Source: an uncultured Lachnospiraceae bacterium
GTDB taxonomy: Bacteria; Bacillota; Clostridia; Lachnospirales; Lachnospiraceae
Reading direction: 5' to 3'
NCBI GenBank assembly: GCA_947382625.1
Contig: CANDAG010000036.1
Location: forward strand, 1 to 37,649
DNA length: 37,649 nucleotides
The number at the start of each line of letters is the position of its first letter. Position 1 is the stretch's first letter. Both the position numbers and the translations under genes were made by a program. The notes under the pieces are model-generated. The model was not told where the DNA came from. It saw only the letters and a program-made list of their open reading frames with translations, and searched no databases. Positions 7,082 to 33,164 of the stretch are shown one piece after another.

Positions 7082-7158
7082 AACATAAGGACTGTGCGCG
7101 GAGCGCGTAATCCGTTGTTAAACATAAGGACTGTGTATGGAGCGTGTAGTCCGTTGTT
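7082..7158. repeat. Tandem pair of 38-bp hairpin repeats, locus 1
   Basis: Two copies, 7082-7119 and 7121-7158, separated by one A. Each reads AACATAAGGAC, a variable arm, a GGA loop, a variable arm, then a TCC end followed by GTTGTT. The copies lie between the kinase and regulator genes. The second copy is inside the 3' end of the leftward kinase gene, where it encodes the final RTTRSIHSPYV, and the first base pair junction (7118-7120) gives its TAA stop. The same 38-bp unit occurs as pairs at 14169 and 22238. Confidence 0.85.
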
Positions 7159-8239
7159 TGGGCAGTACAAAAATGAATTCACAGCCGTTCGGATGGTTGG
7201 CAGCTGTAATAGTTCCGGTGTGGGCAGCGATGATGGTTTTGCAGATGGAGAGTCCTATCCCCATTCCGCGATGACCGTCAGAGCTGCTTTCGGGGTTATA
7301 GCTGGAGCCGTCAAAGATAGTGGAGAGCTTATCCGGAGGGATTCCGATCCCGTAATCCCGGACGCAGAAAGCCGCTTCATCATGGGTAGAGGTCACGATC
7401 AGCTCCGGGGGGATACGGCTGCCGGAATGGATCATGGCATTTTCCAGAAGGTTGATGATGACCTGCTCGATCAATATGGCATCCATGGGAATCATGAGGA
7501 GCTCTTCCGGTACCTGTACGTTTACTGCTGCATCCGGAAATCTTTTGTGAAACCGGATAAGGGCTTCCGAAACCACCTCTTCTACAGATTCCAGCGAGGT
7601 GGCGATCTCCATGGAGCCTTCCTGTATCCTGGTAACCGACAGAAGATTTTCTACCATATTCAGAAGCCAGTTGGAATCCTCACGGATGTGTGCTACCAGC
7701 CGGAGGCGCTCCTCTTCGGTTAAGGCGGCGTGGTGCTCCAGATAGGCGGAGCTGCTTCCGATGATCCCGGTAAGGGGAGTGCGCAGATCATGAGAAACGG
7801 AGCGGAGCAGATTGGCCCGCATTTTTTCTTTTTCCGCCTCCATCAGCAGCTTTTCCCGTTCTACCAGTGCATCGGCCTGGGCCTTGATCCTTGTGGTCAT
7901 GGTGCTCACTACCAGGGAGATGATCAGAGTAAACACAAAGGTCACCGGGTAGCCGGTGAGGGTGAAATTTACCTGAAAATAAGGATAGGTAAACAGATAG
8001 TTGATACCGATCACGCTTACAACAGAGGCGGCGATCCCGTAAAGGTAGCCTTCTGTAAAACGGGCGGTGAGTACCAGGGCGGTTATATATACCAGTGCAA
8101 TATTCGCTGAATTTTCGGGGACAGTAAGAAAAAACCAGAATGCGGTCAGGGTGGCAATGATCAGGATCAGCGCTGTAAGGAGGAGATCCCTGACGGATAA
8201 GGTTTTGTTTATGGGGGAGCTGGCTGGCTTCATGGGCAC
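7118..8239 (-). CDS. Short KdpD-like sensor histidine kinase
   Basis: Membrane histidine kinase of 373 residues. It matches only the C-terminal half of KdpD: a DUF4118 block of four membrane segments (about 17-112), a linker coiled region, the phosphorylated H150 in SVSHDLRTPLTG, then an ATPase domain with the N box LLENAMIHS, DYGIGIPPDKL and GMGIGLSICK. The N-terminal KdpD and Usp domains, which sense the cytoplasm in classical KdpD, are absent. Short kinases of this type are known in Firmicutes. The last 11 residues, RTTRSIHSPYV, and the stop come from the 38-bp repeat. Promoter and direct repeats lie upstream at 8274-8344. The partner is the regulator gene downstream. Confidence 0.85.
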   Translation of the reverse strand: MPMKPASSPINKTLSVRDLLLTALILIIATLTAFWFFLTVPENSANIALVYITALVLTARFTEGYLYGIAASVVSVIGINYLFTYPYFQVNFTLTGYPVTFVFTLIISLVVSTMTTRIKAQADALVEREKLLMEAEKEKMRANLLRSVSHDLRTPLTGIIGSSSAYLEHHAALTEEERLRLVAHIREDSNWLLNMVENLLSVTRIQEGSMEIATSLESVEEVVSEALIRFHKRFPDAAVNVQVPEELLMIPMDAILIEQVIINLLENAMIHSGSRIPPELIVTSTHDEAAFCVRDYGIGIPPDKLSTIFDGSSYNPESSSDGHRGMGIGLSICKTIIAAHTGTITAANHPNGCEFIFVLPKQRTTRSIHSPYV

Positions 8240-8273
8240 TCCTATCTTTGTGATAAAGGATTTTTATGTTCTG

Positions 8274-8302
8274 ATTATACATTTTTCTGCCAGAGAGGGC
8301 AA
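8274..8302 (-). promoter_or_regulatory. Predicted promoter of the KdpD/KdpE-like operon
   Basis: Read on the minus strand: TTGCCC (8297-8302), a 17-base spacer and TATAAT (8274-8279), about 35 bases before the kinase start. The -10 is perfect and the -35 moderate, which suits a promoter that needs an activator. Confidence 0.6.
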
Positions 8303-8322
8303 ATATTTGTGCAGAGAAAGGG

Positions 8323-8344
8323 CGTTAAGATGACGTTAAGATTA
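8323..8344. promoter_or_regulatory. 11-bp tandem direct repeat, candidate response-regulator operator
   Basis: CGTTAAGATGA (8323-8333) is followed directly by CGTTAAGATTA (8334-8344), 10 of 11 bases identical. Direct repeats of one helical turn are the normal binding site of OmpR-family dimers. They lie about 20 bases upstream of the -35 of the leftward kinase operon, a good position for autoactivation by its own regulator. The rightward muramidase gene starts 139 bases away and could share the site. Confidence 0.5.
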
Positions 8345-8482
8345 GACAGGCCTTTCGGAGAGCGAAAGGAGCAAAGAGGACAGGCCGGTTCCTGAAAGTG
8401 AATCAAGTTCTTATGGCAATGAGATGGTTTTTGGGCTATAATATGTTCATATTATTATACACAAAACTACTTGGGAGCAGTC

Positions 8483-10108
8483 ATGAGAAAAAGTACAAAG
8501 GAGAAGCGGATGCTGCTTGCCATAGCCGCATTGGGCATTACCATAGTGGCAGCAGTGATCATCGCTTTTGTAATGTTTTTAAAAAACAGTACGAGTCAGA
8601 GAGAAGCTGTGCAGGCGCAGATCAGCAGTCTGGCGCAGGCGGAGCCCCAGCCGGAGGAGGCATCGGGGACGGAAGCATGTCCGGAATCAGAGGAGAGCAA
8701 GGAACCGAAGGAGGGGGAAAACGGTGAAGAAGCTTCCCCTGATGGGGACGGCACTGCAGGAGAAGAAGAGACGAATGCAGATGGACAGGGTGACCTGCCG
8801 GAACTAAAAGGCGTAGCAGATGGGCAGAGTGAGGTTGCTGTGGGAGCGTTAGATGACGTGCAGGATCCTCAGGGCTCCGGAGTCGCAGGAAATGAAGGAA
8901 GCGGCGCCGAGGTGACAGTTGTCCCCATCGGCAAAGAGGAAACCGCCGATATGACCATGGGGATCGATGTGTCCAAATATCAGGGAACCATTGACTGGAG
9001 TAAGGTGAAGGAATCCGGCGTGGAATTTGCCATGATCCGGGTGGGATATCGGGCAAAGACCACCGGAGAGATCTTTGAGGATCCCACTGCCCGTTATAAT
9101 ATGCAGGAGGCCCAGGCAGCAGGGATCAAACTTGGGGCATACTTTTTTTCATCAGCGGTAACCGGGGAGGAGGCCAGAGCGGAAGCCGCCTTCACAAAGG
9201 AGATCATAGCCAAATATAAGATCACCTACCCGGTAGCCTATAATTGTGAGGATTTTCTCTCATCGGACAGCCGCCAGTACGGGCTTGACAAGGAGACCAG
9301 AACCTCTCTTGCATGCGCCTTTTTAGATGAGATCGCAGCCGCAGGCTATACGCCCATGTTTTATGCTGCCAGAGGGGAATTGGAGGGCAGCGCCCAGTGG
9401 GATACCCAGACCCTTGCAGAAAAATATAAGATCTGGGTTGCCCAGTATCCGGCCCTGGCCTATCCCCAGACCGGAAGATCCGATTATACAGGGGTCCACG
9501 CTATGTGGCAGTATACCAGCCAGGGTACGGTGGCGGGAATCCCGGGGAAGACAGATGTGAACATTGCTTATTTCGGCTATACTCAGGAGGCGGAGGCAAA
9601 GGATGAAACGCCGGCAGAGACAGTGACGGCCAATCCTGAGGTGGGGATTATTTTTACGGAGGTAAATGAAACGGTAACAGCCAAGCAGGAGACAAATCTG
9701 CGGACAGAGCCGAGCACAGCCAATGAAGCTTCCATAGCCGCCAGGCTGGTACATGGAGATACGGCGACCCGGACAGGGATCGGGCATAATGGCTGGTCCA
9801 GACTGATCTATAACGGACAGACCTATTACGCGGTCAGCAGTTATTTAACCACTGATATGTCAGATACAGGACAGCAGGCGCCGCCCCAGGGGCCGGTCTA
9901 CACTCCGGTAAATGAACAGGTGACAGCTAAGATTGAGACGAATCTGCGTTCGGAACCAGGCACTGCAAGTGATGATACAATTGTAGGGCTTCTTCACAAC
10001 GGGGAGGTTCTTACCCGGACAGGGATCGGAGATAACGGCTGGTCCCGGCTTGATCTTAACGGGCAGACAGTTTACGCAGTCAGCAGCTTTCTGACAACGG
10101 CAGAGTAG
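8483..10108 (+). CDS. Membrane-anchored GH25 muramidase with two SH3b domains
   Basis: Cell-wall hydrolase of 541 residues. The ATG at 8483 is chosen because GGGAG lies five bases before it; a TTG twelve bases upstream is in frame but has no ribosome site. The order is: basic start, one membrane segment (about 11-33), an acidic Glu/Gly-rich linker to about 155, a GH25 lysozyme domain (about 159-367) with DVSKYQG, and two bacterial SH3 repeats (about 390-458 and 470-541), each with TNLRxEP and NGWSRL motifs. GH25 enzymes cut the MurNAc-GlcNAc bond. The usual catalytic DxE reads N254-C-E256 here, so the first acid is an asparagine. It is the first gene of a rightward group with the next two genes. 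Confidence 0.88.
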   Translation: MRKSTKEKRMLLAIAALGITIVAAVIIAFVMFLKNSTSQREAVQAQISSLAQAEPQPEEASGTEACPESEESKEPKEGENGEEASPDGDGTAGEEETNADGQGDLPELKGVADGQSEVAVGALDDVQDPQGSGVAGNEGSGAEVTVVPIGKEETADMTMGIDVSKYQGTIDWSKVKESGVEFAMIRVGYRAKTTGEIFEDPTARYNMQEAQAAGIKLGAYFFSSAVTGEEARAEAAFTKEIIAKYKITYPVAYNCEDFLSSDSRQYGLDKETRTSLACAFLDEIAAAGYTPMFYAARGELEGSAQWDTQTLAEKYKIWVAQYPALAYPQTGRSDYTGVHAMWQYTSQGTVAGIPGKTDVNIAYFGYTQEAEAKDETPAETVTANPEVGIIFTEVNETVTAKQETNLRTEPSTANEASIAARLVHGDTATRTGIGHNGWSRLIYNGQTYYAVSSYLTTDMSDTGQQAPPQGPVYTPVNEQVTAKIETNLRSEPGTASDDTIVGLLHNGEVLTRTGIGDNGWSRLDLNGQTVYAVSSFLTTAE

Positions 10109-10122
10109 GAGTCATTTTCTTT

Positions 10123-10821
10123 ATGAAGATACAAAATAATTATAACCCTTATTCCGGAACAGAATATCACAGGCCATATACTCCTCACGGGGCGGAACAC
10201 GTCCGGGAACGTGAGGAAGAGGCCGAAATCAGCGGCGGGCAAAAGAAACAGGAAGCCGGGCATCGAAAGGGAAGAGAGCTGATCAGACAGTTCTGGGATT
10301 CCATGGGAGATGATGAAAACAGCCAGACGGAAAAAACAGATGTGCCCGGGGAAGAAGGTCTGTCAGGGAAGGATACCGGCCGGAGGATATGGGCAATATC
10401 CGCATCTGTCCGGAATCTGTTGCCTGCCTATATCACAGAGAAATGGGAGGATGTAAAAGACAGGATAAAGGAAGGGGCAGGAGCAGCTTTCCAGCGTTTT
10501 AACAGAGGAAAGGATGCCTTTTTGGCACTTTCGGATCCAGGAGGACGATTCCGGGGCAAAAAAGAAGAAAAACACAGGGGCAGGGAGCAGCCCGGCCGGG
10601 GGATGCGGCGGGCAAAGCCGGAGGTACTTTCAGGATCCGTACCGGACACTCATCTGATGGATTCCTATAGTAAGACAGGAGAGTACTGCAGGCTGAATGA
10701 TAATCTTTCCTACAGAAGGGAGCGCCATGAGGCAAACCGCAGGGCTTTTTCCGAAAGCAGGGAAAAGGAGGCTGCAGAGGCTTTGAAGGATGCACCCAAA
10801 AGACTTGATAAACGCCTTTGA
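10123..10821 (+). CDS. Hypothetical highly charged protein
   Basis: I do not recognise this 232-residue protein. It is rich in Arg, Lys, Glu and Gly, has no membrane segment or signal peptide, and looks mostly disordered apart from a possible helix around WAISASVRNLLPAYITEKWEDVKDRIKEG (split by me only for reading; about residues 88-118). The start follows the muramidase stop by 14 bases with TAGGAG about 11 bases before the ATG. The reading frame is long, in line with its neighbours and lies between two same-direction genes, so it is probably real. Function unknown. Confidence 0.55.
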   Translation: MKIQNNYNPYSGTEYHRPYTPHGAEHVREREEEAEISGGQKKQEAGHRKGRELIRQFWDSMGDDENSQTEKTDVPGEEGLSGKDTGRRIWAISASVRNLLPAYITEKWEDVKDRIKEGAGAAFQRFNRGKDAFLALSDPGGRFRGKKEEKHRGREQPGRGMRRAKPEVLSGSVPDTHLMDSYSKTGEYCRLNDNLSYRRERHEANRRAFSESREKEAAEALKDAPKRLDKRL

Positions 10822-10876
10822 AAACGATATACTTATGAAACCGATAAAAAAGACAAACTGGGAAGGGGTTACGAAA

Positions 10877-11803
10877 ATGGGCTACGAAATACCTTATGAG
10901 AAGAGGATCAAAGAAAATATCAAGAATTATACGTTGTCGAATCTTTATGATATGGAGGTCGTCAAGAGATATCTGGGCAGTCTGGCGGAGGCGTTAAAGC
11001 TCAGCATACTGCTCACAGACCGGCATGGGGAAAAGGAGGTTGCCATAGGAGACGGCTTTGCAGGCTTTCATCCGGATGTTGTAGGAGAGCCGGGGAGAAA
11101 GCTCCGGATCAAAAACCGGACCATCGGCCATCTTTATGTGAAGCAGCTTACAGGGGAAGAAGAGAGCAGACTGGCCGGTGAGCTGTTAGACGGTACGATC
11201 GCGATTTTAAGTACACTGGGAGAAGAGGCATATCTTCACAGGGAAAGCAGTATTTATCTGGAAGAGCTTGAAAAGCAGTTAGAGAGCCGGAAGCATATTG
11301 TGGCAAACAATGAGCGGGAGGATATCCTGACAGGCGTGTTCAACGAGATTTATTTTGAGAGCAGGATGAAGCTGATCGACCGCTCTGAGGTGATCCCGGT
11401 GGCAGTGCTGAACGTGAATATCAACGACTGGAAGTTTGTAAACGATCATTTCGGGGATGAGGAGAGCGACAGGCTGATACGCACGGTGGCAGATATCGTA
11501 CGTGAGGAAGCGAAGCCCGATTATGTGGTGGGAAGGATTGACGGCGATGTGTTTGGCGTACTGATCCCTATGGCAGAGGAGGGGGAAGCGGAGGAGTATA
11601 TGGAGCGGCTCCAGAGCAGATGCTTATCCTTTGAAGATCCCATACTGGCTCCCTCCGTGGCAGTGGGTATGGTATACAAGACAAATATAGAAGAAACACT
11701 GGAGGAAAGGCTCTCGGACGCAGAGTATGAGATGTTTAATAACAAGTTCGAGATCAAGAATGCCCCCGGATACAGAGAAAGACTTGAAAAAGGATTAAAT
11801 TAA
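10877..11803 (+). CDS. Degenerate GGDEF-domain protein
   Basis: Protein of 308 residues with an N-terminal sensory-like region (about 25-130, perhaps a PAS/GAF-type fold), a short helix, then a GGDEF domain (about 150-305). DILTGVFNEIYFESRM matches the start of a GGDEF domain, but the signature reads D222-G-D-V-F226 instead of GGDEF, so the GTP-binding Gly and the catalytic Glu are lost. It is unlikely to make c-di-GMP and may serve as a binding or regulatory protein. The ATG at 10877 is preferred because GGAAGGGG lies eight bases before it; an earlier in-frame ATG at 10790 would overlap the gene upstream and has no such site. Confidence 0.72.
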   Translation: MGYEIPYEKRIKENIKNYTLSNLYDMEVVKRYLGSLAEALKLSILLTDRHGEKEVAIGDGFAGFHPDVVGEPGRKLRIKNRTIGHLYVKQLTGEEESRLAGELLDGTIAILSTLGEEAYLHRESSIYLEELEKQLESRKHIVANNEREDILTGVFNEIYFESRMKLIDRSEVIPVAVLNVNINDWKFVNDHFGDEESDRLIRTVADIVREEAKPDYVVGRIDGDVFGVLIPMAEEGEAEEYMERLQSRCLSFEDPILAPSVAVGMVYKTNIEETLEERLSDAEYEMFNNKFEIKNAPGYRERLEKGLN

Positions 11804-11923
11804 AATGAAATTCTAAACAGTTTATTAAATCCTTCTTTTGAGGCGAAAATGAGATAATGAGAGTAAAATAAAGAAAAAAAGAGAAAATGGAAGATATTTC
11901 TAAATATACAGCCGTAATTCCGT

Positions 11924-11952
11924 TTGCAAAGGAAAGGATATGAAATTAATAT
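11924..11952 (+). promoter_or_regulatory. Predicted promoter of groES-groEL
   Basis: TTGCAA (11924-11929), 17-base spacer, TAATAT (11947-11952). The CIRCE operator begins 12 bases downstream of the -10, the usual arrangement for HrcA repression. The 120 bases before it (11804-11923) are AT-rich and hold nothing else I can name. Confidence 0.6.
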
Positions 11953-11964
11953 ATGCTTTAGTGA

Positions 11965-11991
11965 TTAGCACTCGATATAAATGAGTGCTAA
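11965..11991. promoter_or_regulatory. CIRCE operator (HrcA binding site)
   Basis: Perfect inverted repeat TTAGCACTC, nine bases, GAGTGCTAA, identical to the consensus arms. It lies in the groES leader, so HrcA should repress the operon until heat shock. Confidence 0.96.
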
Positions 11992-12036
11992 CAAGAAAAA
12001 CTATAGGGAAGCGAAGGCAATAAGGAGGCATTCATA

Positions 12037-12321
12037 ATGAAGTTAGTACCATTAGCAGACAGAGTTGTTTTAAAGCAGTTGGTAGCAGAAGAGACTACCA
12101 AATCAGGCATCGTGCTGCCGGGACAAAATAAAGAGAAGCCCCAGCAGGCAGAAGTTATTGCAGTAGGCCCTGGCGGTGTAGTGGACGGAAAAGAAGTAAA
12201 GATGGAGGTTAAGGTGGGCGATCAGGTCATCTACTCCAAATATGCAGGAACAGATGTGAAGATCGATGAGGAAGAGTTCATCATCGTAAAGCAGAGTGAC
12301 ATCTTAGCAGTGATCCAGTAA
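12037..12321 (+). CDS. groES: Co-chaperonin GroES
   Basis: Ten-kDa lid of the GroEL chamber, 94 residues, full length. It starts with KLVPLADRVVLKQ and contains the mobile loop EETTKSGIVLPGQNKEKP and the VGDQVIYSKYAGTDVKI segment typical of GroES. An AAGGAGG ribosome site precedes the ATG. The gene is followed by groEL after 104 bases and is under CIRCE control. Confidence 0.98.
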   Translation: MKLVPLADRVVLKQLVAEETTKSGIVLPGQNKEKPQQAEVIAVGPGGVVDGKEVKMEVKVGDQVIYSKYAGTDVKIDEEEFIIVKQSDILAVIQ

Positions 12322-12419
12322 GGATCAGGCTTACAGCGTAAGCACACAGGCAGATTTAAGTTTTGCTGATACCGATCAAAAGGCATCAGCGCAAGTATGA
12401 TAGAAATCAGGAGGCATAA

Positions 12420-14048
<1,629 letters not shown>

Positions 14049-14126
14049 AACGGATGAATCTGAAGGATAAATCCGGCAGATAAGATCCACACCTATAAAG
14101 ACCAGAAAAAATATATTAGGGTAATG

Positions 14127-14168
14127 AGAGCAGATATGCTATAATAAAAAGCATATCTGCTCTTTTTT
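14127..14168 (+). terminator. Intrinsic terminator of groES-groEL
   Basis: Perfect 14-bp stem AGAGCAGATATGCT / AGCATATCTGCTCT with a nine-base loop, followed by a run of T. The first 38-bp repeat of locus 2 begins at the base after the T run. Confidence 0.93.
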
Positions 14169-14244
14169 AACATAAGGACAGTTTGCGAAGCGTGCTGTCC
14201 GTTGTTAACATAAGGATGGCTCGCGGAGCGTGGCATCCGTTGTT
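14169..14244. repeat. Tandem pair of 38-bp hairpin repeats, locus 2
   Basis: Copies 14169-14206 and 14207-14244 with no spacer. Compared with locus 1 and 3 the arms differ, but changes on one side are matched on the other: GGACAG pairs with CTGTCC, and GGATGGC pairs with the GGCATCC arm apart from one offset. It is placed between the groEL terminator and the ABC exporter genes. Confidence 0.88.
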
Positions 14245-14286
14245 TGGGCAATAGTAAATACAGGAGAAAAGGACAAAGGAATATAA

Positions 14287-16098
14287 ATGAAGGGCATCTT
14301 TAAATACATAAAACCATATGGTCCGTTTATGCTTCTTACGCTGTTATTAAAGTTTGTGGCAGCCATGATGGATCTGCTGATCCCATCCCTGTTAGCAAAG
14401 ATCATCGATGATATTGTCCCTACCAGGGAGGTGAGACTGATCTTCTTATGGGGCGGAGTCATGCTCATTTGTGCTGTTTTTTCCGTTACCACCAATGTGA
14501 CCGCTAATCGTATGGCGGAGGTCTCTGCCGGAGGGATGACCAGGCAGCTTCGGCATGATCTTTTTTCGAGGGTTACTTATTTAAGCGCCGGGCAGATGGA
14601 CGATTTTACAGTCTCCTCGGTGGTGTCCAGGCTGACCTCCGATACCTACAATGTAAACCGGATGCTGGCAAGGATGCAGCGTCTGGGGGTAAGAGGCCCC
14701 ATTCTTCTGATCGGCGGTATTTTGATCACTATGACTATGGAACCCAGACTGACATTGGTGCTGGCGGCGGCGCTTCCGTTTATCATACTGATCGTTTGGG
14801 CAGTCACCACAAAAAGCATTCCGGTGTACAGCGGGCAGCAGAAGGTCTTAGATAAGATGGTGCGGGTCCTTCAGGAAAATATCACCGGCGTCCGGGTAAT
14901 ACGGGCTCTTTCGAGAACAGATTATGAGAAGGAAAGATATGATAAGGTAAATGAAGAGCTGGCGGAGATCGAGCAGAAGGCGGGGCGGATATCCTCTGCC
15001 AGCAGTCCCCTGACAACGCTGGTGCTGAACCTGGGACTTACAGCTGTGATCCTTACCGGTGCTTATCTGGTCCAGAGGGGAGAAGCCGGACCGGGAGTGA
15101 TCATTGCTTTTTTGAGTTACTTTACCATCATACTAAATGCCATGCTGGGGATCACCAATATTTTTGTCATGTGTTCTAAGGGGCTGGCCTCCATGCGGCG
15201 TATCTTTGAAATCATGGAGGCACCGGAGGAGATGCCGGTACGTATGCCGGATCCGGAAAACGATCTGCCGGCGGAGGAAGCAGGAAAAGAGGCAGAAAAG
15301 GAAGCGGGAAGAGAAGGAGAAGCTCCGCTGGTGGAATTTAAGGATGTGACCTTTTCTTATAATAAGAAGGGGAACCACCTTTCCCATATCAGCTTTGCCC
15401 TGAAAAAGGGAGAAAGTCTGGGGATCATTGGAGCCACAGGAAGCGGCAAGAGCACTATTGTCAATCTGCTCCTTCGGTTTTATGATGCGGATCAGGGAAG
15501 CATATGGATTGACGGAAGAAAAATCGACACGATTCCCTACCCTGAGCTTCGGGAAATGTTCGGTGTGGTATTCCAGAACGATTATCTGATGGCGGCATCC
15601 ATGGAAGAAAATATTGATTTCTTCCGGGGGCTTACGCGGGAGCAGATCGATGAGGCTGCAGAACATGCCCAGGCAAAAGGGTTTATCACGGAAAAAGAGG
15701 GCCGGATGGATGCAAGGGTGGCGGTGAGAGGTAATAACTTAAGCGGCGGTCAGAAACAGCGTATTATGATCGCCAGGGCATTGGCAGCAAAGCCCCGGAT
15801 CCTGATTTTGGACGATGCCTCCTCCGCCCTTGATTATAAGACGGATGCCGGACTGCGAAGGGAGCTGCATACCCATTTCGGGGAAACCACTGCCATTACC
15901 ATTGCCCAGCGGATCAGCTCCATTCGGGGAGCGGATCATATACTGGTTTTGGAGGATGGCAGATGTATCGGATATGGAACCCATGAGGAGCTTTTGAAGA
16001 GCTGCCGGGAGTATCAGCTTATTTACGAGCTGCAGATGGGAATGGATGATGAAAGGGAAGATTTGGGGAAGGAGGCGCAGGAAAATGAAGGGGAATGA
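14287..16098 (+). CDS. ABC exporter half-transporter, degenerate-site subunit
   Basis: Fused membrane and ATPase protein of 603 residues, one half of a heterodimeric multidrug-type exporter (BmrCD or TM287/288-like). Six membrane segments span about 15-300 and an acidic linker with repeated EAGKEAEKEAG follows. The ATPase has Walker A GATGSGKST (382-390), signature LSGGQKQR and Walker B LILDD. The catalytic Glu after Walker B is D510 and the switch His is Q541, so its own ATP site is degenerate. This is the normal asymmetry of such pairs. The second subunit begins 14 bases before its stop. An AAAGGA site precedes the ATG. Substrate unknown. Confidence 0.9.
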   Translation: MKGIFKYIKPYGPFMLLTLLLKFVAAMMDLLIPSLLAKIIDDIVPTREVRLIFLWGGVMLICAVFSVTTNVTANRMAEVSAGGMTRQLRHDLFSRVTYLSAGQMDDFTVSSVVSRLTSDTYNVNRMLARMQRLGVRGPILLIGGILITMTMEPRLTLVLAAALPFIILIVWAVTTKSIPVYSGQQKVLDKMVRVLQENITGVRVIRALSRTDYEKERYDKVNEELAEIEQKAGRISSASSPLTTLVLNLGLTAVILTGAYLVQRGEAGPGVIIAFLSYFTIILNAMLGITNIFVMCSKGLASMRRIFEIMEAPEEMPVRMPDPENDLPAEEAGKEAEKEAGREGEAPLVEFKDVTFSYNKKGNHLSHISFALKKGESLGIIGATGSGKSTIVNLLLRFYDADQGSIWIDGRKIDTIPYPELREMFGVVFQNDYLMAASMEENIDFFRGLTREQIDEAAEHAQAKGFITEKEGRMDARVAVRGNNLSGGQKQRIMIARALAAKPRILILDDASSALDYKTDAGLRRELHTHFGETTAITIAQRISSIRGADHILVLEDGRCIGYGTHEELLKSCREYQLIYELQMGMDDEREDLGKEAQENEGE

Positions 16099-17884
16099 TA
16101 AGGAAGAAAGAAATCCCGAAGAAAAGAAAAGACCGGCAAGGAAATATCTTCTGGTCAGATTATGGCGCTATTTAAGCAGGTATTATCTGCTTCTTACGGC
16201 AGGCTTTTTTCTTATGCTTTTCTCTAATATACTTGCCCTTTTCGGTCCAAAGCTCTCCGGAAAAGCCATTGATGCCATCGGAATCCGGGCAGGAGGAGTG
16301 GATTTTGAGAGGGTGCTTTACTATGCAGGATGGATGGCGGTTTTTTATGTGCTTTCTGCCTTTTTTTCTTACCTTCTGTCCTTACTCACCATTCATCTCA
16401 CACGAAAAGTGATCTATCAGATGCGAAGAGATGTGTTTGAGAATCTGGCAAGGCTTCCGGTATCTTTTTTTGACAGATACCAGACCGGGGATATCATCAG
16501 TATTATCACCTATGATATTGATACGGTGAATCAATCTCTTTCAGGGGATTTTCTTCAGATCATGCAGAGCGTTATCACAGTTTTGTTTTCTCTGGTAATG
16601 ATGCTGTCCATTGCGCCTGCGATGGTGCTTATTTTTGTGGTGACGATCCCGCTTTCCGCCTTGCTTACCCGGTTTATCACCAGCCGTTCCAGGCCTTTAT
16701 ACCGGGTACGGTCCAAAAAGCTGGGGGAGCTTAACGGTTTTGTGGAGGAAATGCTGGGCGGACAGAAGACCACCAGGGCCTATGGAAGGGAAGAGCAGGT
16801 GATAGAGGCCTTTGACCGCAAAAACGGGGAGGCAGTGGAGGCCAATACAAAGGCAGAATATTATGGTACGCTGGCAGGCCCCTCCGTGAACTTTATGAAT
16901 AATACTTCGCTCGCACTGATCAGTGTTTTTGGTTCTCTTCTTTATCTGAGAGGAGGGATCGGGATCGGGGATATTTCCTCTTTTGTGCAGTACTCCCGGA
17001 AGTTTTCCGGCCCGATCAATGAGACAGCCAACATCTTAGGGGAGCTTCAGTCTGCTTTTGCGGCGGCGGAGCGGGTGTTCCGGCTGATGGATGAGCTCCC
17101 CGAAAAGCCGGATGAGGAGAGAGCAGAGCTCTTGAAGGAGGTTTACGGAGATGTGGTCCTTAAGGATGTCTCCTTTGGCTATCAGCCCGGACAGGAGATC
17201 CTTAAGGAATTTAATCTTCATGCAAAAGCCGGAGAGCAGATCGCCATTGTGGGACCTACGGGTGCAGGCAAAACCACGGTGATCAATCTGCTGATGCGGT
17301 TTTATGATATTGAGAAGGGCTGTATTTTGCTGGATGGGCAGGACACTTATCAGATTAAAAGAGACAGCCTGCGGGGAGCCTATACTATGGTTTTGCAGGA
17401 TGCGTGGCTGTTCCATGGAACGATCTATGAAAATCTGACCTATGGAAGAGACAATATTTCCATGGAGGAGGTGGAGCGGGCAGCGAAGGCAGCCATGATC
17501 TATTCCTATATCCAGAAGCTGCCGGAGGGCTTCCAGACCATGCTCAGCGATAACGGCGTCCATATTTCCAAGGGACAAAGACAGCTCCTTACGATTGCAA
17601 GGGCCATGCTTTCCGACGCCCATATGCTGATCCTTGACGAGGCAACCTCCAACGTGGATACCCGGACGGAAATGCAGATACAGGAAGCCATGCGAAGCCT
17701 TATGGCAGGAAAAACCTGCTTTGTGATCGCCCACCGGCTTTCCACCATCCGTAATGCGGATCTGATCCTGGTGGTAAAGGACGGGAGGATCGCCGAGCAG
17801 GGAAAACACAGGGAGCTGTTAGAAAAGAGAGGGCTGTATTACGAGATGTATCACGCCCAGTTTGAGGAACCTGTGGCTTCTTAG
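16085..17884 (+). CDS. ABC exporter half-transporter, partner subunit
   Basis: Second half of the heterodimer, 599 residues. The ATG at 16085 is chosen because GGAGG lies nine bases before it; an upstream in-frame ATG at 16046 sits inside the partner gene. Six membrane segments are followed by an ATPase with Walker A GPTGAGKTT (390-398), Walker B LILDEATSNVD with the catalytic Glu, and the switch His in IAHRLSTI. The signature reads ISKGQRQ (494-500) in place of LSGGQ. Since this signature faces the degenerate Walker site of the first subunit, one of the two composite sites is doubly degenerate and the other canonical. Confidence 0.9.
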   Translation: MKGNDKEERNPEEKKRPARKYLLVRLWRYLSRYYLLLTAGFFLMLFSNILALFGPKLSGKAIDAIGIRAGGVDFERVLYYAGWMAVFYVLSAFFSYLLSLLTIHLTRKVIYQMRRDVFENLARLPVSFFDRYQTGDIISIITYDIDTVNQSLSGDFLQIMQSVITVLFSLVMMLSIAPAMVLIFVVTIPLSALLTRFITSRSRPLYRVRSKKLGELNGFVEEMLGGQKTTRAYGREEQVIEAFDRKNGEAVEANTKAEYYGTLAGPSVNFMNNTSLALISVFGSLLYLRGGIGIGDISSFVQYSRKFSGPINETANILGELQSAFAAAERVFRLMDELPEKPDEERAELLKEVYGDVVLKDVSFGYQPGQEILKEFNLHAKAGEQIAIVGPTGAGKTTVINLLMRFYDIEKGCILLDGQDTYQIKRDSLRGAYTMVLQDAWLFHGTIYENLTYGRDNISMEEVERAAKAAMIYSYIQKLPEGFQTMLSDNGVHISKGQRQLLTIARAMLSDAHMLILDEATSNVDTRTEMQIQEAMRSLMAGKTCFVIAHRLSTIRNADLILVVKDGRIAEQGKHRELLEKRGLYYEMYHAQFEEPVAS

Positions 17885-17906
17885 CAGGAAATTAGGAAAC
17901 GCTACA

Positions 17907-17935
17907 TTGACGAACCAGACAAAAAAATATATAAT
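17907..17935 (+). promoter_or_regulatory. Predicted strong promoter of rel
   Basis: TTGACG (17907-17912), 17-base spacer, TATAAT (17930-17935); 11 of 12 consensus bases. It lies 55 bases before the rel start. Confidence 0.75.
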
Positions 17936-17990
17936 AGCTTAAATAAAGTGAGAATAAGAAGATGAACAGAGTATCTGAGGGTATTGCCAT

Positions 17991-20315
17991 ATGACGGAAG
18001 AAAAAGATACGAATCAGGCAACAAGTGAATTAGTGATCGATGACGGCAGGATAGAAGCCATCGAAGAGTTCCAAAGTCCCGAGCAGTTATACAGGGACTT
18101 GGTTTTGCGTGTCCGGAAATACCATCCTTCAGATGACATTACTTTAATAGAAAAGGCTTACAATCTGGCAAGGAAGGCTCACGAAAACCAGGTGCGCAAA
18201 TCCGGCGAGCCTTATATCATCCATCCCTTATGTGTAGCCATCATACTGGCTGACCTGGAAATGGACAAAGAAACCATAGCCGCCGGCCTTCTGCATGATG
18301 TGATCGAGGATACCATCATGACAGAGGATGAGATCAAGGAGGAGTTTGGCAAGGATGTTGCCCTGCTGGTAGACGGAGTGACCAAGTTAGAGCAGCTGAA
18401 ATTTACCAGTGAGAACGGAGACAAAACCTTGGACCGGTTGGAAATGCAGGCAGAAAATCTCCGAAAAATGTTTCTGGCCATGGCAAGGGATATCCGTGTT
18501 ATTATCATTAAGCTTGCGGACCGTCTCCACAATATGCGGACCCTGAAGTATAAGAGCCCGGAAAGCCAGATCCGGATCGCAAGAGAGACCATGGAGATTT
18601 ATGCCCCCATTGCCCAGAGGCTTGGGATATCCAAGATCAAGGTGGAGTTAGATGACCTTTCCCTGAAATATTCGGCGCCGGATGCTTATTATGATCTGGC
18701 GGATAAGATCGCGGCCCGCAAAAGCGAGAGGGAGGCTTATATCCAGGGTATTGTGGATGAGGTGCGGGAGCATATCGTAGGTGCCGGTATCAAAGCTCAG
18801 ATCGACGGCCGTGTAAAGCATTTTTTCAGTATCTACAAAAAAATGAAGAATCAGAATAAAACCATTGACCAGATCTACGATCTGTTTGCAGTGAGGATCA
18901 TTGTGGATACGGTGAAGGACTGCTATGCGGCGTTAGGCGTGATCCATGAGATGTATAAGCCGATCCCGGGCCGATTCAAGGATTATATTGCCATGCCCAA
19001 GGCAAATATGTATCAGTCGCTGCATACTACCCTGATCGGGACCAACGGACAGCCCTTTGAGATCCAGATCAGAACCTACGAAATGCATAAGGCGGCGGAA
19101 TACGGGATTGCCGCCCACTGGAAATATAAGGTGGCCTCTGATGGCAAGAAGATAGAGGATTCCGAAGAAGAAAAGCTTTCCTGGCTTCGGCAGATCCTGG
19201 AGTGGCAGCAGGATATGTCTGACAACAGGGAATTCATGAATCTGTTAAAGAGCGATCTTGATCTGTTTTCGGACAGTGTTTACTGCTTTACTCCCACCGG
19301 AGAGGTGAAGAATCTTCCGGCAGGCTCCACGCCCATTGATTTTGCCTACAGTATCCACAGCGCGGTGGGGAATAAGATGATCGGCGCAAGAGTCAACGGT
19401 AAGCTGGTGACCATAGATTATGAGATCAAAAACGGCGATCAGCTGGAAATACTGACCTCCCAGAATTCCAAGGGACCCAGCCGGGACTGGCTTGGCGTGG
19501 TCAAGAGTACCCAGGCCAAGAATAAGATCAACCAGTGGTTTAAGAATGAATTTAAAGAAGACAATATCATCAAAGGCAAGGAGCTTTTAAACACATACTG
19601 TAAGAACAGAAATATCAATATGCCGGAGATCATGAAGACCGAATATATGGAGGTCATCATGCGCAAGTACGGCTTCAGGGATTGGGATTCAGTGCTTGCG
19701 GCGGTAGGGCACGGAGGCCTGAAGGAAGGGCAGATTATCAATAAGATGCTTGAGGTTTACGACAAAAACCACAAGAAGGAGCTGACCAATGAGGAAGTGC
19801 TTGCGGCGGTAGCCGAAAATGATTTTTCCAGGAAGCCTGTGCAGATCAAATCCAAAAGCGGGATCACCGTCAAGGGCATCCACGATGTGGCGGTGCGCTT
19901 TTCCAAGTGCTGTTCTCCGGTACCGGGAGATGAGATCGTGGGATATGTGACCCGGGGAAGAGGGGTATCGATCCACAGAACAGACTGTATCAATGTGATC
20001 AATCTTCCGGATATGGAAAGGGTGCGTCTGATCGACGCGGAATGGGAAGGCTCGCCGGATGAGACAGGCGGCGAAAAATATCTGGCTGAAATTAAAATTT
20101 TTGCCAATAACAGGAATGGCCTTTTAGCAGACATATCCAAGGCATTAACCGAAAAAAATATCGATATACTCGCCCTGAATACAAGGGTCAGCAAGCAGGG
20201 AACCGCTACCTTGTCGACCTCCTTTGAGATCACCAACAGGGAAGAGCTGAATCATATTATCGACAAGCTCAGCGGGATCGAGAGCGTTCTGGATATTGAG
20301 AGGACCACAGGATAA
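17991..20315 (+). CDS. rel: Bifunctional (p)ppGpp synthetase/hydrolase Rel
   Basis: Long ribosome-associated stringent-response enzyme of 774 residues. Order of domains: HD hydrolase (about 50-200, with H102-D103 in LLHDVIEDT), synthetase (about 240-350, with the RFKDYIAMPKANMYQSLHTT and FEIQIRTYEMH motifs), TGS (about 415-475, VYCFTPTGEVKNLPAGSTP), a helical and zinc-finger-like region containing FSKCCSPVPGDEIVGY, and a C-terminal ACT domain. Both active sites look intact. GAGGG lies eight bases before the ATG. It may share a transcript with the hydrolase gene 19 bases downstream. The window also holds relQ. Confidence 0.95.
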   Translation: MTEEKDTNQATSELVIDDGRIEAIEEFQSPEQLYRDLVLRVRKYHPSDDITLIEKAYNLARKAHENQVRKSGEPYIIHPLCVAIILADLEMDKETIAAGLLHDVIEDTIMTEDEIKEEFGKDVALLVDGVTKLEQLKFTSENGDKTLDRLEMQAENLRKMFLAMARDIRVIIIKLADRLHNMRTLKYKSPESQIRIARETMEIYAPIAQRLGISKIKVELDDLSLKYSAPDAYYDLADKIAARKSEREAYIQGIVDEVREHIVGAGIKAQIDGRVKHFFSIYKKMKNQNKTIDQIYDLFAVRIIVDTVKDCYAALGVIHEMYKPIPGRFKDYIAMPKANMYQSLHTTLIGTNGQPFEIQIRTYEMHKAAEYGIAAHWKYKVASDGKKIEDSEEEKLSWLRQILEWQQDMSDNREFMNLLKSDLDLFSDSVYCFTPTGEVKNLPAGSTPIDFAYSIHSAVGNKMIGARVNGKLVTIDYEIKNGDQLEILTSQNSKGPSRDWLGVVKSTQAKNKINQWFKNEFKEDNIIKGKELLNTYCKNRNINMPEIMKTEYMEVIMRKYGFRDWDSVLAAVGHGGLKEGQIINKMLEVYDKNHKKELTNEEVLAAVAENDFSRKPVQIKSKSGITVKGIHDVAVRFSKCCSPVPGDEIVGYVTRGRGVSIHRTDCINVINLPDMERVRLIDAEWEGSPDETGGEKYLAEIKIFANNRNGLLADISKALTEKNIDILALNTRVSKQGTATLSTSFEITNREELNHIIDKLSGIESVLDIERTTG

Positions 20316-20334
20316 AAGAAAGGAAATTTTGAAG

Positions 20335-20964
20335 ATGGCGAATTTAAAGATCGGCAGGATCATGCTGGGCATGTGTCAGACAAACTGCTATTTTGTCTAT
20401 GAAGAAGGAAAGCAGAAGGCGCTGGTATTCGATCCGGCGGACAAAGGCGAATATATTTATAACGGCCTGAAGGATAAGGGCTTTTCGGTGGAAGCGATCC
20501 TCCTGACTCATGGGCACTTTGACCATATCTGGGGTGTGGAGGCCTTAAAGGAGCTTTCCGGCGCAAAGGTGTATGCCTGGGAGGAAGAGAAGGAGGTATG
20601 CGAAAACGCCTCGGTAAATGTTTCCAAGGGAGCAGGAAGACCCTGCGCCATAAAGGCGGATCATTATCTGAAGGATGGAGAGGAGATCACCCTTGAAGAT
20701 ATGAATTTAAGGCTGATCGGTACGCCCGGACATACAAAGGGGAGTTGCTGCTATTATTTTGAGGATGATAAGATTTTGATAAGTGGGGACACTTTATTTC
20801 AGGAGTCAGTGGGAAGGACGGATCTGCCTACAGGAAGTATGGGAAGCCTTGTGCGCTCCGTGAAAGAAAAGCTCTTTCCTCTGCCGGAGGATGTAAAGGT
20901 ATATCCCGGCCACGGAGACTCCACCACGATAGGGCACGAAAAGAAATATAATCCCTTTTTATAA
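20335..20964 (+). CDS. Metallo-beta-lactamase-fold hydrolase (glyoxalase II-like)
   Basis: Cytoplasmic hydrolase of 209 residues with the two-metal motif H59-G-H61-F-D63-H64, a second ligand set in GTPGHTKGS, an Asp in SGDTLF and a closing His in VYPGHGDST. Proteins of this size next to rel are common in Firmicutes and are often named hydroxyacylglutathione hydrolase, but the substrate is not known. The ATG at 20335 has AAAGGA about 10 bases before it; an in-frame ATG at 20296 lies inside rel. Confidence 0.85.
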   Translation: MANLKIGRIMLGMCQTNCYFVYEEGKQKALVFDPADKGEYIYNGLKDKGFSVEAILLTHGHFDHIWGVEALKELSGAKVYAWEEEKEVCENASVNVSKGAGRPCAIKADHYLKDGEEITLEDMNLRLIGTPGHTKGSCCYYFEDDKILISGDTLFQESVGRTDLPTGSMGSLVRSVKEKLFPLPEDVKVYPGHGDSTTIGHEKKYNPFL

Positions 20965-21043
20965 TACAAAAGCACTTACGGCGGATCACAGGAACATCAG
21001 TGTTTGAAGCCGCAAAAAGAAAACGGCAGAAAGGAACAAGAAA

Positions 21044-22225
21044 ATGACAGCAAAGAGAAAAGTATTTATGGCTGCCGCGGTACTGGCAGCAGGCATGATC
21101 CTGACAGGATGCGGCAAAGAGGAACAGGAACCGGCTTCGCCGGAGGTTGTGGTTGAGCCCATACCGGAAGCGACCACGGAGCCCACACCGGAAGCGACTA
21201 CGGAGCCGGAGGATCCTTCAGTGATCGGAGAGCGGGAGTCGGTAGATGGAAAGATGCAGAGCTACCTGACCGGAGAATGGAAGGATGAAGAGGTGGTATC
21301 AAGACGCCCGATCGCAGTTATGATCCCCAACAATTCTCCAGCCATGCCTCAGTACGGGATCTCCAGGGCAAGCATTATCTATGAAGCTCCTGTTGAGGGA
21401 AGGATCACCAGGCTGATGGGAGTTTTTGAGGACTTTGATGATCTGGAAAGGATCGGACCTGTCAGAAGCAGCCGTGACTACTTTGTCTATGTAGCCATGG
21501 GATATGAGGCTCTTTATTGTAACTGGGGGCTGGCAAGGCCTTATGTGGAAGAGCTGATCAACCGTGATACAGTCCAGAATATCAGCGCCGCAGTGGAGGG
21601 GATCAACAATCCTGCCCATGAAGCCTTTGACAGGGTCAGCCGTCCGGGCTATGCCACAGAATTTACCGGGTACCTTTTTATAGACGGAGTGAAGGAAGCG
21701 GCAGAGCGGCTTGGCTATGAATGGGAATATGATGACGCCTATGTGCCTCCCTTTACCTTTGCAGCGGAAGGGAAGAGGGCCGAGGAAGAGTTTTATAAGG
21801 ACGCGGAGGATGCCACCATGGTATATCCCGGCGGACAGAGCGGCAATCAGGGCGGTTATGGCGCTTATAATCCCTACTTTGAGTATAATGAAGAGGATCA
21901 TCTTTATTACAGATATCAGAACGGCAAGCAGCATATCGACGAGATCGACAGCAAACAGCTCACCGTGTCCAATGTAGTATTCCAGTACTGCCATGGAGAA
22001 GTGAGAGACTCTCATGATTATCTGGCGTTTGGCGTTCACGGAGAAGGGGATGCCATTGTCTTCACCGGCGGAAAGGTGATTAAGGGCACCTGGGAGAGAT
22101 ATGACGGTGACGCCACGCCGGCCAAATTCTATGACGAAAACGGCGAAGAGATCATTTTTAACCAGGGAAAGACCTGGATCTGCAATATCTGGAAGGAATA
22201 CGGAGAGTTTGTAGAGTACAAATAA
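21044..22225 (+). CDS. DUF3048-domain lipoprotein (YerB-like)
   Basis: Exported lipoprotein of 393 residues. Signal peptide with lipobox LTGC (C23), followed by a short Pro/Thr/Glu linker with a repeated PEATTEPTPEATTEP unit and then a DUF3048 domain from about 80. RRPIAVMIPNNSPAMPQYGIS, YEAPVEGRITRLMGVF and RIGPVRSSRDYFVY are characteristic. The C-terminus has the matching YRYQNGKQH and WERYDGDATPAKFYDENG parts of the second domain. Role unknown, probably cell envelope. AAAGGA precedes the ATG. The third hairpin repeat pair lies 12 bases after the stop. Confidence 0.88.
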   Translation: MTAKRKVFMAAAVLAAGMILTGCGKEEQEPASPEVVVEPIPEATTEPTPEATTEPEDPSVIGERESVDGKMQSYLTGEWKDEEVVSRRPIAVMIPNNSPAMPQYGISRASIIYEAPVEGRITRLMGVFEDFDDLERIGPVRSSRDYFVYVAMGYEALYCNWGLARPYVEELINRDTVQNISAAVEGINNPAHEAFDRVSRPGYATEFTGYLFIDGVKEAAERLGYEWEYDDAYVPPFTFAAEGKRAEEEFYKDAEDATMVYPGGQSGNQGGYGAYNPYFEYNEEDHLYYRYQNGKQHIDEIDSKQLTVSNVVFQYCHGEVRDSHDYLAFGVHGEGDAIVFTGGKVIKGTWERYDGDATPAKFYDENGEEIIFNQGKTWICNIWKEYGEFVEYK

Positions 22226-22237
22226 AAAGAAAAACCT

Positions 22238-22313
22238 GACATACGGACTGTGCGCGGAGCGTGCAGTCCGTTGTTGACATTAGGACAGTTCGCGGAGCGT
22301 GCAGTCCGTTGTC
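22238..22313. repeat. Tandem pair of 38-bp hairpin repeats, locus 3
   Basis: Copies 22238-22275 and 22276-22313 with no spacer. The first copy has an 11-bp stem GGACTGTGCGC / GCGTGCAGTCC (two G-T pairs) with a GGA loop. The second differs on one arm only (GGACAG against CAGTCC), a single mismatch. The pair lies between the DUF3048 gene and the glmS promoter, 10 bases before the -35. Confidence 0.88.
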
Positions 22314-22352: not shown

Positions 22353-22410
22353 GGTATGCGGCACCTTGAAAACAACATAAATGCATGAGGTTTGTCATTG
22401 TTTCCCTTAT

Positions 22411-22601
22411 CTAGCGCCATGGCCTTCCAGAGAAGCGGCAGTATATTTGTCGCAGGATCCGGGAGGTTGACGAGGTAAAGAGTGATCGAAAATTCGGCGG
22501 ATGCTCTTTCGTACTTCTCCGGTGCGGGATATACCGGCAAATATGCGGGTAACTGCAAAACAAATACGGTATAACGGAGACCTGCTGTTAAAGCAGGAAA
22601 T
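22411..22601 (+). ncRNA. glmS ribozyme (glucosamine-6-phosphate-activated)
   Basis: Self-cleaving leader RNA. Cut site expected between A22413 and G22414 in TCTAGCGCC. Conserved core pieces are in order: GCGCC, a P1 helix (CCTTCC with GGGAGG), GTTGACGAGG, ATCGA, TCGGCGGATG, a P2.1 helix (AAAGAG with CTCTTT), P3 arms TCTCCG and CGGAGA, and a final CCTGC/GCAGG helix ending near 22601. When glucosamine-6-phosphate is high the RNA cuts itself and the glmS message is degraded. The ends are approximate. Confidence 0.9.
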
Positions 22602-26480: not shown

Positions 26481-27428
26481 ATGGATATTCTATCCATGGA
26501 CACAGAGATAAGAAATGCAGTAAGTGCGGCGGACGAAGATGCCCAATATGACGAGAAGGCGAAGCGACTGTTGGGAAATAAGATCATTTTGGCGCATATA
26601 CTGGTAAAGACTGTTGATGAATTTAAGGGAATGGATCCGGAAGATGTGGTGTCCCACATTGAGGGAGAGCCTTTCATCAGTGTGGTTCCGGTAGAGCCGG
26701 GGCTGACCAATATCGAAAAGGAAAAAAATGGGCAGAGGATTGTCGGGCTGAATACGGAAAATGCGGAGATTAACGAAGGGCTGATCCGATTTGACATTAT
26801 CTTTTATGTACGCATGAAAGACGGTATCTCACAGGTGATCGTAAATTTGGAAGCACAAAAGGACGAACCCACAAGTTACCATATCCTGAACAGGGCAGTG
26901 TTCTATGTAAGCCGCCTTGTTTCCTCGCAGAAGGAACGGGATTTTGTCAAGACGAACTATAACGACATCAAACGTGTTTTCAGTATCTGGGTCTGTATGA
27001 ACATGGACGAGAACTGTATGGATTATGTGCATCTGGCGGACGATAAGCTCTTAGGCTCTTATCCGTGGAAAGGCGGGATTGACCTGCTGAATATTGTCCT
27101 GATCGGTATAGCAAATGAACTTCCGGAGCATGATGATAAATATGAGCTGCACCGTCTGCTGAGTACGCTTTTGTCAATGGAGCTTTCCGTTGATGAAAAA
27201 TTAGGGATTATGGAGAGTGAGTACAGTATTGCAGTAGATGATAGAATAAGAGAGGACGTGAGCGCTATGTGTAACTTGTCACAAGGAATCAGAGATAATA
27301 CCTTAGTAGATGTAATAATGAATATGTATGAGAATAATTTTACTCTTGAACAGATAGCTGTTGCCACAAAGAAAAGCGTGGAAGAGGTCAGAATTATCAT
27401 CAAGAAAAAAGAGCCTGTGCTGGCATAA
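26481..27428 (+). CDS. PD-(D/E)XK nuclease family transposase (Rpn/PDDEXK_2 type)
   Basis: Protein of 315 residues of the recombination-promoting nuclease group, cut-and-paste-like elements common in gut Clostridia. The nuclease core reads RFDIIFYVR (D105) and VNLEAQKD (E124-A-Q126), which fits D...ExQ of this family. The C-terminus has a short helix-turn-helix-like ending FTLEQIAVATKKSVEEVRII, also typical. GGAGG lies 11 bases before the ATG at 26481 and only four before another ATG at 26474, which opens a 25-codon frame ending at 26551. The real N-terminus is therefore uncertain; 26496 is a third option. No clear terminal inverted repeats were found, so mobility is inferred from family. Confidence 0.78.
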   Translation: MDILSMDTEIRNAVSAADEDAQYDEKAKRLLGNKIILAHILVKTVDEFKGMDPEDVVSHIEGEPFISVVPVEPGLTNIEKEKNGQRIVGLNTENAEINEGLIRFDIIFYVRMKDGISQVIVNLEAQKDEPTSYHILNRAVFYVSRLVSSQKERDFVKTNYNDIKRVFSIWVCMNMDENCMDYVHLADDKLLGSYPWKGGIDLLNIVLIGIANELPEHDDKYELHRLLSTLLSMELSVDEKLGIMESEYSIAVDDRIREDVSAMCNLSQGIRDNTLVDVIMNMYENNFTLEQIAVATKKSVEEVRIIIKKKEPVLA

Positions 27429-32489: not shown

Positions 32490-33164
32490 GTGGGCAAAAA
32501 GATTCTGATCGTAGATGATGAAAAAGGTGTTGTAGATATGCTGAAGAACTATTTTGGGAAACAGTCATTTCAGGTTTATACTGCCCTTAATGGTACGGAG
32601 GCATTAAAACAGGTAAAAATGAATCCGGATATTGTGCTGCTTGACATCAATATGCCGGATATGGACGGACTTGCTCTCTGTGAGCGGATACGGGAGTTTA
32701 TTACCTGTCCGATCCTTTTTCTGACGGCACGGGTCGAGTCTGCCGATAAGATTATGGGATTTCAGGCCGGGGCAGACGATTATATTGTCAAGCCTTTTGA
32801 CTTGGATGAATTGGGGGCGAGGGTAGCAGCCCATTTGCGGCGGGAACAACGTCGCCAAAGCAGCAGGGCAGTAGGCTTTTTTGGGGAATTGACAATCGAC
32901 TATACCGCACGGAGGATCACTGTAAATGGTGAAGTTGTTGCTATGTCAAAACGGGAATTTGACATTACCACGTTATTATCCCTTAATCCAGGTCAGGTAT
33001 TTGACAGGGAACGGATTTATGAAGCTGTTTGGGGAATAGACGGGGATGGGAACAGTGATACGGTTATGGAGCATATCCGAAAGATCAGGGCAAAGCTGGC
33101 GGTGCATACACCTTACAGCTATATCGAAACAGTTTGGGGGTGTGGCTATAAATGGAACGCATAA
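32490..33164 (+). CDS. OmpR-family response regulator
   Basis: Response regulator of 224 residues. GTG at 32490 is chosen because GGAGG lies seven bases before it and the protein then begins MGKKILIVDDE; an ATG at 32466 would add eight residues. The receiver has D9-D10, phosphorylated D52 and K in VKPFDLDEL. The winged helix shows MSKREFDITTLLSLNPGQVFDRERIYEAVWG and IETVWGCGYKW. It overlaps its kinase gene by 13 bases. The likely target is the ABC operon that follows. Confidence 0.9.
   Translation: MGKKILIVDDEKGVVDMLKNYFGKQSFQVYTALNGTEALKQVKMNPDIVLLDINMPDMDGLALCERIREFITCPILFLTARVESADKIMGFQAGADDYIVKPFDLDELGARVAAHLRREQRRQSSRAVGFFGELTIDYTARRITVNGEVVAMSKREFDITTLLSLNPGQVFDRERIYEAVWGIDGDGNSDTVMEHIRKIRAKLAVHTPYSYIETVWGCGYKWNA

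Follow-up and report, generated by a model that had tools for sequence, protein, structure and literature searches.

A short, probably mobile hairpin repeat often placed behind intrinsic terminators in the Lachnospiraceae genus Parablautia

What kind of element stands six times, in three head-to-tail pairs, in one contig of an uncultured Lachnospiraceae bacterium, and why does it stand where it does? The contig, CANDAG010000036.1 of assembly GCA_947382625.1, is the window of this work, analysed over its whole length of 37,649 nucleotides; the genome it belongs to, hereafter the own genome, is a metagenome-assembled genome (MAG) that is 88% complete. We argue that the repeat, here called family 1, is probably a non-autonomous mobile hairpin of 38 nt that resembles repetitive extragenic palindromes (REPs), has a sister of 37 nt (family 2), and targets terminators. 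The sequences show that the copies are dispersed and placed behind a hairpin and T-run, or behind another unit, on one strand.

The hairpin units and their distribution

A sequence-only reading had described six copies of 38 bp in three head-to-tail pairs, all of which were recovered on the plus strand, together with a terminator that becomes important below:

7082-7119, plus strand: family-1 hairpin unit 1a, a strict pattern match
7121-7158, plus strand: family-1 hairpin unit 1b, a strict pattern match, whose reverse complement codes the end of a KdpD-like kinase open reading frame (ORF)
14127-14168, plus strand: groEL intrinsic terminator, with arms at 14127-14139 and 14151-14163 and a T-run to 14168
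14169-14206, plus strand: family-1 unit 2a, directly 3' of the T-run of the groEL terminator
14207-14244, plus strand: family-1 unit 2b, following 2a with a 0-base gap and differing from it in stem subfamily
22238-22275, plus strand: family-1 unit 3a, between a DUF3048 gene and glmS
22276-22313, plus strand: family-1 unit 3b, a strict pattern match

The unit-to-unit periods at loci 1, 2 and 3 are 39, 38 and 38, and the loop is GGA throughout with a single GAA in unit 2a, as had been read. Each unit has the form (R)ACATAAG-stem-CGTTGT(T). What had been missed is that pairing continues beyond a conserved TAA/GT internal loop into the outer arms AACA/TGTT. Both families are imperfect hairpins whose outer arms read ACA(A)/(T)TGT; the TAA/GT internal loop is constant in them, the inner stem covaries and usually keeps a T.T mismatch, and the loop mostly has the form RRA. 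That the arms covary is supported in two ways. In an alignment of 56 divergent copies, 91.1% of cells are base-paired and the covariation score is 0.361, as against 0.195 +/- 0.010 for shuffles, none of 500 of which scored as high; a slid pairing gave at most 0.128, although this control is biased towards the structure because the structure was derived from the same sequences. Mutual information agrees: among 703 column pairs of 90 distinct 38-mers from the own genome, the top three corrected values are stem pairs, and in 116 pooled 38-mers the top three are again all in the stem. Folded as DNA, the six copies take the expected shape, with z-scores of -5.08, -3.72, -2.54 and -1.71, -1.20, -0.98 (-0.56 for the complete family-2 unit in the window); since three of the six are unremarkable, folding energy alone would not single out all six.

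The repeat extends far beyond the window, as a whole-genome pattern search shows. The strict family-1 pattern, ACATNNGGAN{16,26}TCCGTTGT, matches the own genome of 4.18 Mb 103 times (66 forward, 37 reverse) and its reversed control never. A relaxed script run on fetched stretches returned 125 candidates, at least one of them visibly spurious; 47 have no neighbour, the rest lie in arrays and 11 are flanked on both sides, so the pair-wise arrangement is not constant, as it had been taken to be. With a simple ORF caller, 64 of 83 arrays fall between ORFs, 17 within an ORF of 100 or more amino acids and two at a locus edge.

Over 194 genomes, the own one included, the pattern occurs in 32: 22 of the 37 genus members and 10 genomes from other groups. 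In four of the 194 the reversed control also has a match, one in each. Among the seven outside-genus matches with sequence displayed, only that in genome G049 has family-like arms, and the four pattern matches in viral contigs have none by eye. A covariance model searched against 397 Lachnospiraceae genomes found matches in 10, which again include the own genome and also G295 (seven matches) and G100 (four), both of other genera; these counts are floors because only 17 candidates were scored per genome. The family centres on a single Lachnospiraceae genus, Parablautia, inside which strict copies range from 0 to 103 per genome and form near-identical, genome-specific subfamilies. Records titled Muribaculum sp. 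(JAMPGV; L105, L115, L130, L146, L154, L157, L181 and L187) carry family-1 units otherwise met in Lachnospiraceae, and the title probably belongs to a misnamed MAG.

The sister family shares the architecture of family 1 and keeps its TAA/GT loop. Its pattern, AATAAGCN{16,24}GCGTTTG, with a unit of 37 nt, is present in 27 of 37 genus genomes and matches strictly 154 times in the own genome, 144 in G001, 121 in G028 and 53 each in G029 and G020, while the reversed pattern gives 0-1 matches per genome and none in the own one. The outer arms switch jointly between ACAA/TTGT and ATCAA/TTGAT: among 33 copies in full context, 14 combine left TAC with right TT, 12 left ATC with right AT, and seven are otherwise. 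Mixed arrays of both families occur, and in P. muri (L337:3326-4098) 21 near-identical family-2 units stand in tandem with an exact period of 37, a recent local amplification.

Placement, and sites with and without the element

But where do the copies sit? A pool of 163 distinct copies, which includes a few chance matches, contains 139 that come first in their array, and before these T occupies 53-88% of each position from -9 to -2; family-1 units are preceded by TT, then A or G. By a home-made score with a cut-off of 18, a strong hairpin lies upstream of 33 of 60 array-first family-1 copies in the own genome versus 52 of 600 random positions, and on the downstream side in 9 of 89. For family 2 in P. 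intestinalis, 30 of 43 copies have such a hairpin upstream; random positions give 26 of 500, and the downstream side, where 38 nt were tested, 8 of 62. Copies lie in sense orientation, on the strand that bears the T-run, and they often follow an intrinsic terminator or another copy directly on its 3' side; among array-first copies, the share that stands right behind an intrinsic terminator is about half to two thirds.

It had been proposed that the repeat might be an RNA element acting on the 3' ends of transcripts. The link to 3' ends stands for about half of array-first copies, but the unit sits past the T-run, so that most transcripts should end before reaching it. This position, together with an oppositely oriented upstream gene at 23 of 64 intergenic arrays, suggests that placement reflects target choice rather than RNA function.

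Behind groEL, no family-1 copy is present in any of 17 relatives read, in 15 of which the terminator is recognisable by eye; at L208 a hairpin-like remnant follows the groEL terminator. Upstream of glmS, G012 alone among the 18 relatives read carries a family-1 copy, which there follows a terminator of that genome's own. An array at L269:4869-4980 is missing in eight of eight relatives, seven of which show the empty site as CTTTTCTGCATA or TTTTTCTGCATA, the filled site being CTTTTC[insert]TGCATA. At L250:2769, G012 has the empty site GCTTTTTCTA, as against GCTTTTT[insert]CTA when filled; the insert includes the relic of an earlier unit. Within the own genome itself, two tandem gene copies are 89.5% identical; one has a family-2 hairpin immediately followed by a family-1 unit, and the other is empty. 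At the readable empty sites no duplication of the target longer than 1-2 bases can be seen, and one of one or two T is possible; if the element were a MITE of a DDE transposase, with terminal inverted repeats and a fixed target-site duplication, that duplication could be no longer than this. At other arrays, family-2 sites included, the flanks are too diverged for base-exact junctions.

The window itself holds two family-2 units that had been overlooked, and a riboswitch next to locus 3:

34248-34285, minus strand: family-2 unit ATCAATAAGC..GCGTTTGAT, whose reverse complement codes the end of a kinase-like ORF (33152-34288)
42-79, minus strand: degenerate family-2 unit, placed behind a T-run
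22402-22583: glmS riboswitch/ribozyme (Rfam RF00234, 76 bits), upstream of glmS and just downstream of locus 3

Some units have become parts of genes. The KdpD-like kinase ORF, on the minus strand, ends within locus 1 (7118-7160): its C-terminus KQRTTRSIHSPYV* is coded by the reverse complement of unit 1b and its stop codon, 7118-7120, falls at the 1a/1b junction. Two relatives read at this gene end, G012 and G020, have no insert and different C-termini. The kinase-like ORF at 33152-34288 is a second gene that owes its end to an antisense unit: its C-terminus QTPSRFAGQLID* is coded by the reverse complement of the family-2 unit (34248-34288). The pairs at loci 1 and 2 also share a downstream flank, TGGGCARTA (7159-7167 and 14245-14253), despite lying beside different genes. 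Elsewhere in the window, a 315-aa ORF at 26481-27428 has no Pfam match at E<=0.001.

What might move the hairpin

How would so small an element travel? The closest chemistry would be that of HUH/Y1 enzymes (IS200/IS605 insertion sequences, TnpA-REP), in which a hairpin carries a guide tetranucleotide at its foot, which here would be TAAG; the likeness of the unit to an IS200/IS605 left end is our reason for inferring single-strand hairpin chemistry. An enzyme would recognise the folded single strand of the element and link the element's left end to the base that follows another hairpin and its T-rich tail. Terminators would then imitate in structure the right end of the element, a hairpin followed by GTTGTT, and this mimicry would explain both terminator targeting and head-to-tail arrays; because the element ends in this way, the pairs fit insertion behind an existing copy. 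Taken to its full extent, the idea is a structure-guided hairpin transposition in which any single-stranded hairpin with a T-rich tail, whether terminator or own end, may serve as landing site for an enzyme outside the REP-associated tyrosine transposases (RAYTs), the IS200/IS605 TnpA proteins and the group II reverse transcriptases (RTs); the system would have spread through the terminators of a gut genus. We regard this fuller version as speculative and doubtful as it stands.

Part of family 2 adds a parallel at its left flank: the tetranucleotide TTAC abuts the unit in 23 of 43 P. intestinalis copies and in 10 of 11 copies from other non-own genomes or records. IS608 inserts 3' of TTAC, chosen by the guide AAAG (PMC5934647). 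As TTAC is present in part of family 2, the parallel is limited to one subfamily.

Searches for the enzyme itself gave little. The sole PF01797 (Y1) protein found in the own genome is an IS200/IS605 TnpA on a contig of 4,953 bases without copies, next to an ORF that we take to be TnpB-like. Across the genus, PF01797 occurs in 21 of 37 genomes with 34 matches; of these, 19 proteins were scanned and all 19 pass the IS200 model, while the RAYT model scores them at 24.8-39.7 (cut-off 80) in 17 cases and finds no match in two. Many of the remaining 15 matches are partial, and the assemblies are incomplete. No family copy was found in 30 Y1-bearing loci (87 kb), two loose-scan matches there being not family-like, nor in 30 RT-bearing loci. 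Y1 is present in 9 of 16 genomes with at least 14 copies of both families and in 12 of 21 with fewer, which is no association; for the group II RT the figures are 10 of 16 and 14 of 21. The group II RT model TIGR04416 (E<=0.001) has no match in the own genome (257 copies of both families), G001 (164), G020 (98) or G031 (21). When 704 distinct ORFs near copies were clustered for a recurrent neighbour, only common families emerged, presumably ABC transporters, regulators, serine recombinases and a nuclease-like family. An ORF near a P. muri copy (L040/L165, the same locus), which we take to be IS110-like, was dropped as a candidate since no junction with the hairpin was seen; a similar ORF in viral contig L193 adjoins a pattern match that is not family-like.

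Which agent, then, fits these results? The sequence-only reading had offered a REP-like palindrome moved by a RAYT-type enzyme. The REP-like half holds by analogy, through a short imperfect palindrome that is mostly intergenic, numbers about 100 copies, forms genome-specific subfamilies and leaves filled and empty sites; the RAYT half is not supported, as all 19 Y1 proteins scanned, of 34 matches, are of IS200/IS605 type and copy number is unrelated to Y1 presence. That a RAYT (TnpA-REP) moves a classical REP here is unlikely in our judgement. Speaking for it are the conserved mismatch, the high copy number, the mostly intergenic location and the subfamilies, and REP genomes without a tnpA-REP gene are known, with gene loss suspected (PMC6006769); the foot, however, lacks GTAG/CGTC, and none of the 30 Y1-bearing loci holds a copy. 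Another short route to the same address would be mobilisation in trans by a group IIC intron protein, as Bacterial-C introns insert just behind rho-independent terminators (PMC8919778), the position of many elements here. The window, however, has no Rfam intron match, RT-bearing loci hold no copies, and the missing TIGR04416 match contradicts this route in the own genome, short of a gene loss or an RT in the 12% that the assembly lacks. A 38-nt hairpin is, moreover, too small to hold a ribozyme, and we consider this the most improbable of the explanations.

Two further explanations dispense with these enzymes. The hairpin may be the work of another, undescribed single-strand hairpin recombinase or host activity, which we see as possible but tentative: high copy numbers in G020 and G031 without Y1 or RT matches fit it, but no gene family other than common ones stands beside the copies, and positive evidence for it was not found. 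Alternatively, it could be a functional RNA or DNA element under selection and not mobile, such as a back-up terminator, an RNA 3'-end barrier or a protein site. Covariation and the position behind terminators would agree with such a role, but orthologous sites without the element, a range of 0-103 strict copies in one genus, near-identical genome-specific subfamilies and the location past the T-run make it very unlikely.

Several observations weigh against a mobile, terminator-targeting hairpin. No mobilising gene was found in the searches above: G020 carries 98 copies of both families yet gives no match to Y1 or to the group II RT, and G007, with 24 copies and listed as 100% complete, has no Y1 match. 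This absence is not proof, because MAG assemblies can miss repeated genes. The hairpin score and its cut-off are of our own making, and by them 27 of 60 array-first copies have no strong upstream hairpin, window loci 1 and 3 included, whose lack of an obvious terminator speaks against a strict rule; of the 33 upstream hairpins, at least 5 are judged by eye to be degenerate repeats and not gene terminators. A replication-strand bias drawn from local GC skew was discarded: 114 of 155 family-1 copies lie on the G-rich strand, but only 22 of 49 with an opposite upstream gene do, so that gene orientation confounds the test. At L276 the filled tandem gene copy is missing the TTCC that the empty one has, which means that insertion is sometimes imprecise. 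TTAC, finally, is found in none of 13 array-first family-2 copies of the own genome, where ATC forms prevail, and the P. muri family-2 array has TTTC in its place; TTAC may belong to the element instead of the target, as orthologous family-2 sites are too diverged to separate the two.

Relation to known systems

Finally, we would like to place the hairpin among described repeats. In an Rfam scan of the window only glmS exceeded its gathering score and the hairpin units matched no family, and these sequences were not found described in the literature searched, which mostly excludes subscription papers. The repeat is best classed with REP-like non-autonomous hairpin elements, on grounds of resemblance rather than membership. 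Like REPs and REPINs, it is a short imperfect hairpin with conserved mismatches, mostly intergenic, high in copy number and split into subfamilies per genome; E. coli REPs require their mismatch bulge for activity (PMC8266576). Unlike REPs, it has a TAAG foot with CGTTGT on the 3' side (the 56-copy alignment shows no unpaired GTAG/CGTC motif) and an extra outer stem past the TAA/GT internal loop. Its units in the window follow one another head to tail with gaps of 0-1 base, it probably targets terminators, and no RAYT was found. Most REPs fall into the GTAG and CGTC superfamilies in a 2013 survey (PMC3733652), whose main text mentions neither Firmicutes nor Clostridi; RepRanger (PMC12306157) names three Bacillota species in a table and, in its available text, has no match for Lachnospir.

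With IS200/IS605 ends (IS608, ISDra2) the element shares a hairpin, a foot tetranucleotide, no evident target duplication and, in part of the sister family only, a TTAC-like left flank; it differs in having no transposase gene inside, and the end hairpins of the own genome's insertion sequence are unrelated by eye. Bacterial-C introns likewise insert directly behind intrinsic terminators, but the element has 38 nt, no ribozyme and no reverse transcriptase. Tandem hairpin repeats of constant length recall CRISPR arrays, but here there are no spacers, the repeats are dispersed and neighbouring stems often differ.

Set beside these systems, the two families add a REP-like pair in Clostridia of which our searches found no description. 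They would also be a non-intron example of elements that settle directly behind intrinsic terminators, a harmless niche, and the head-to-tail arrays would follow from the same landing rule. Where window copies stand antisense at a gene's end, they even supply new last residues and stop codons. As the element is only 38 nt long, recognition of target and donor would be accessible with oligonucleotides.

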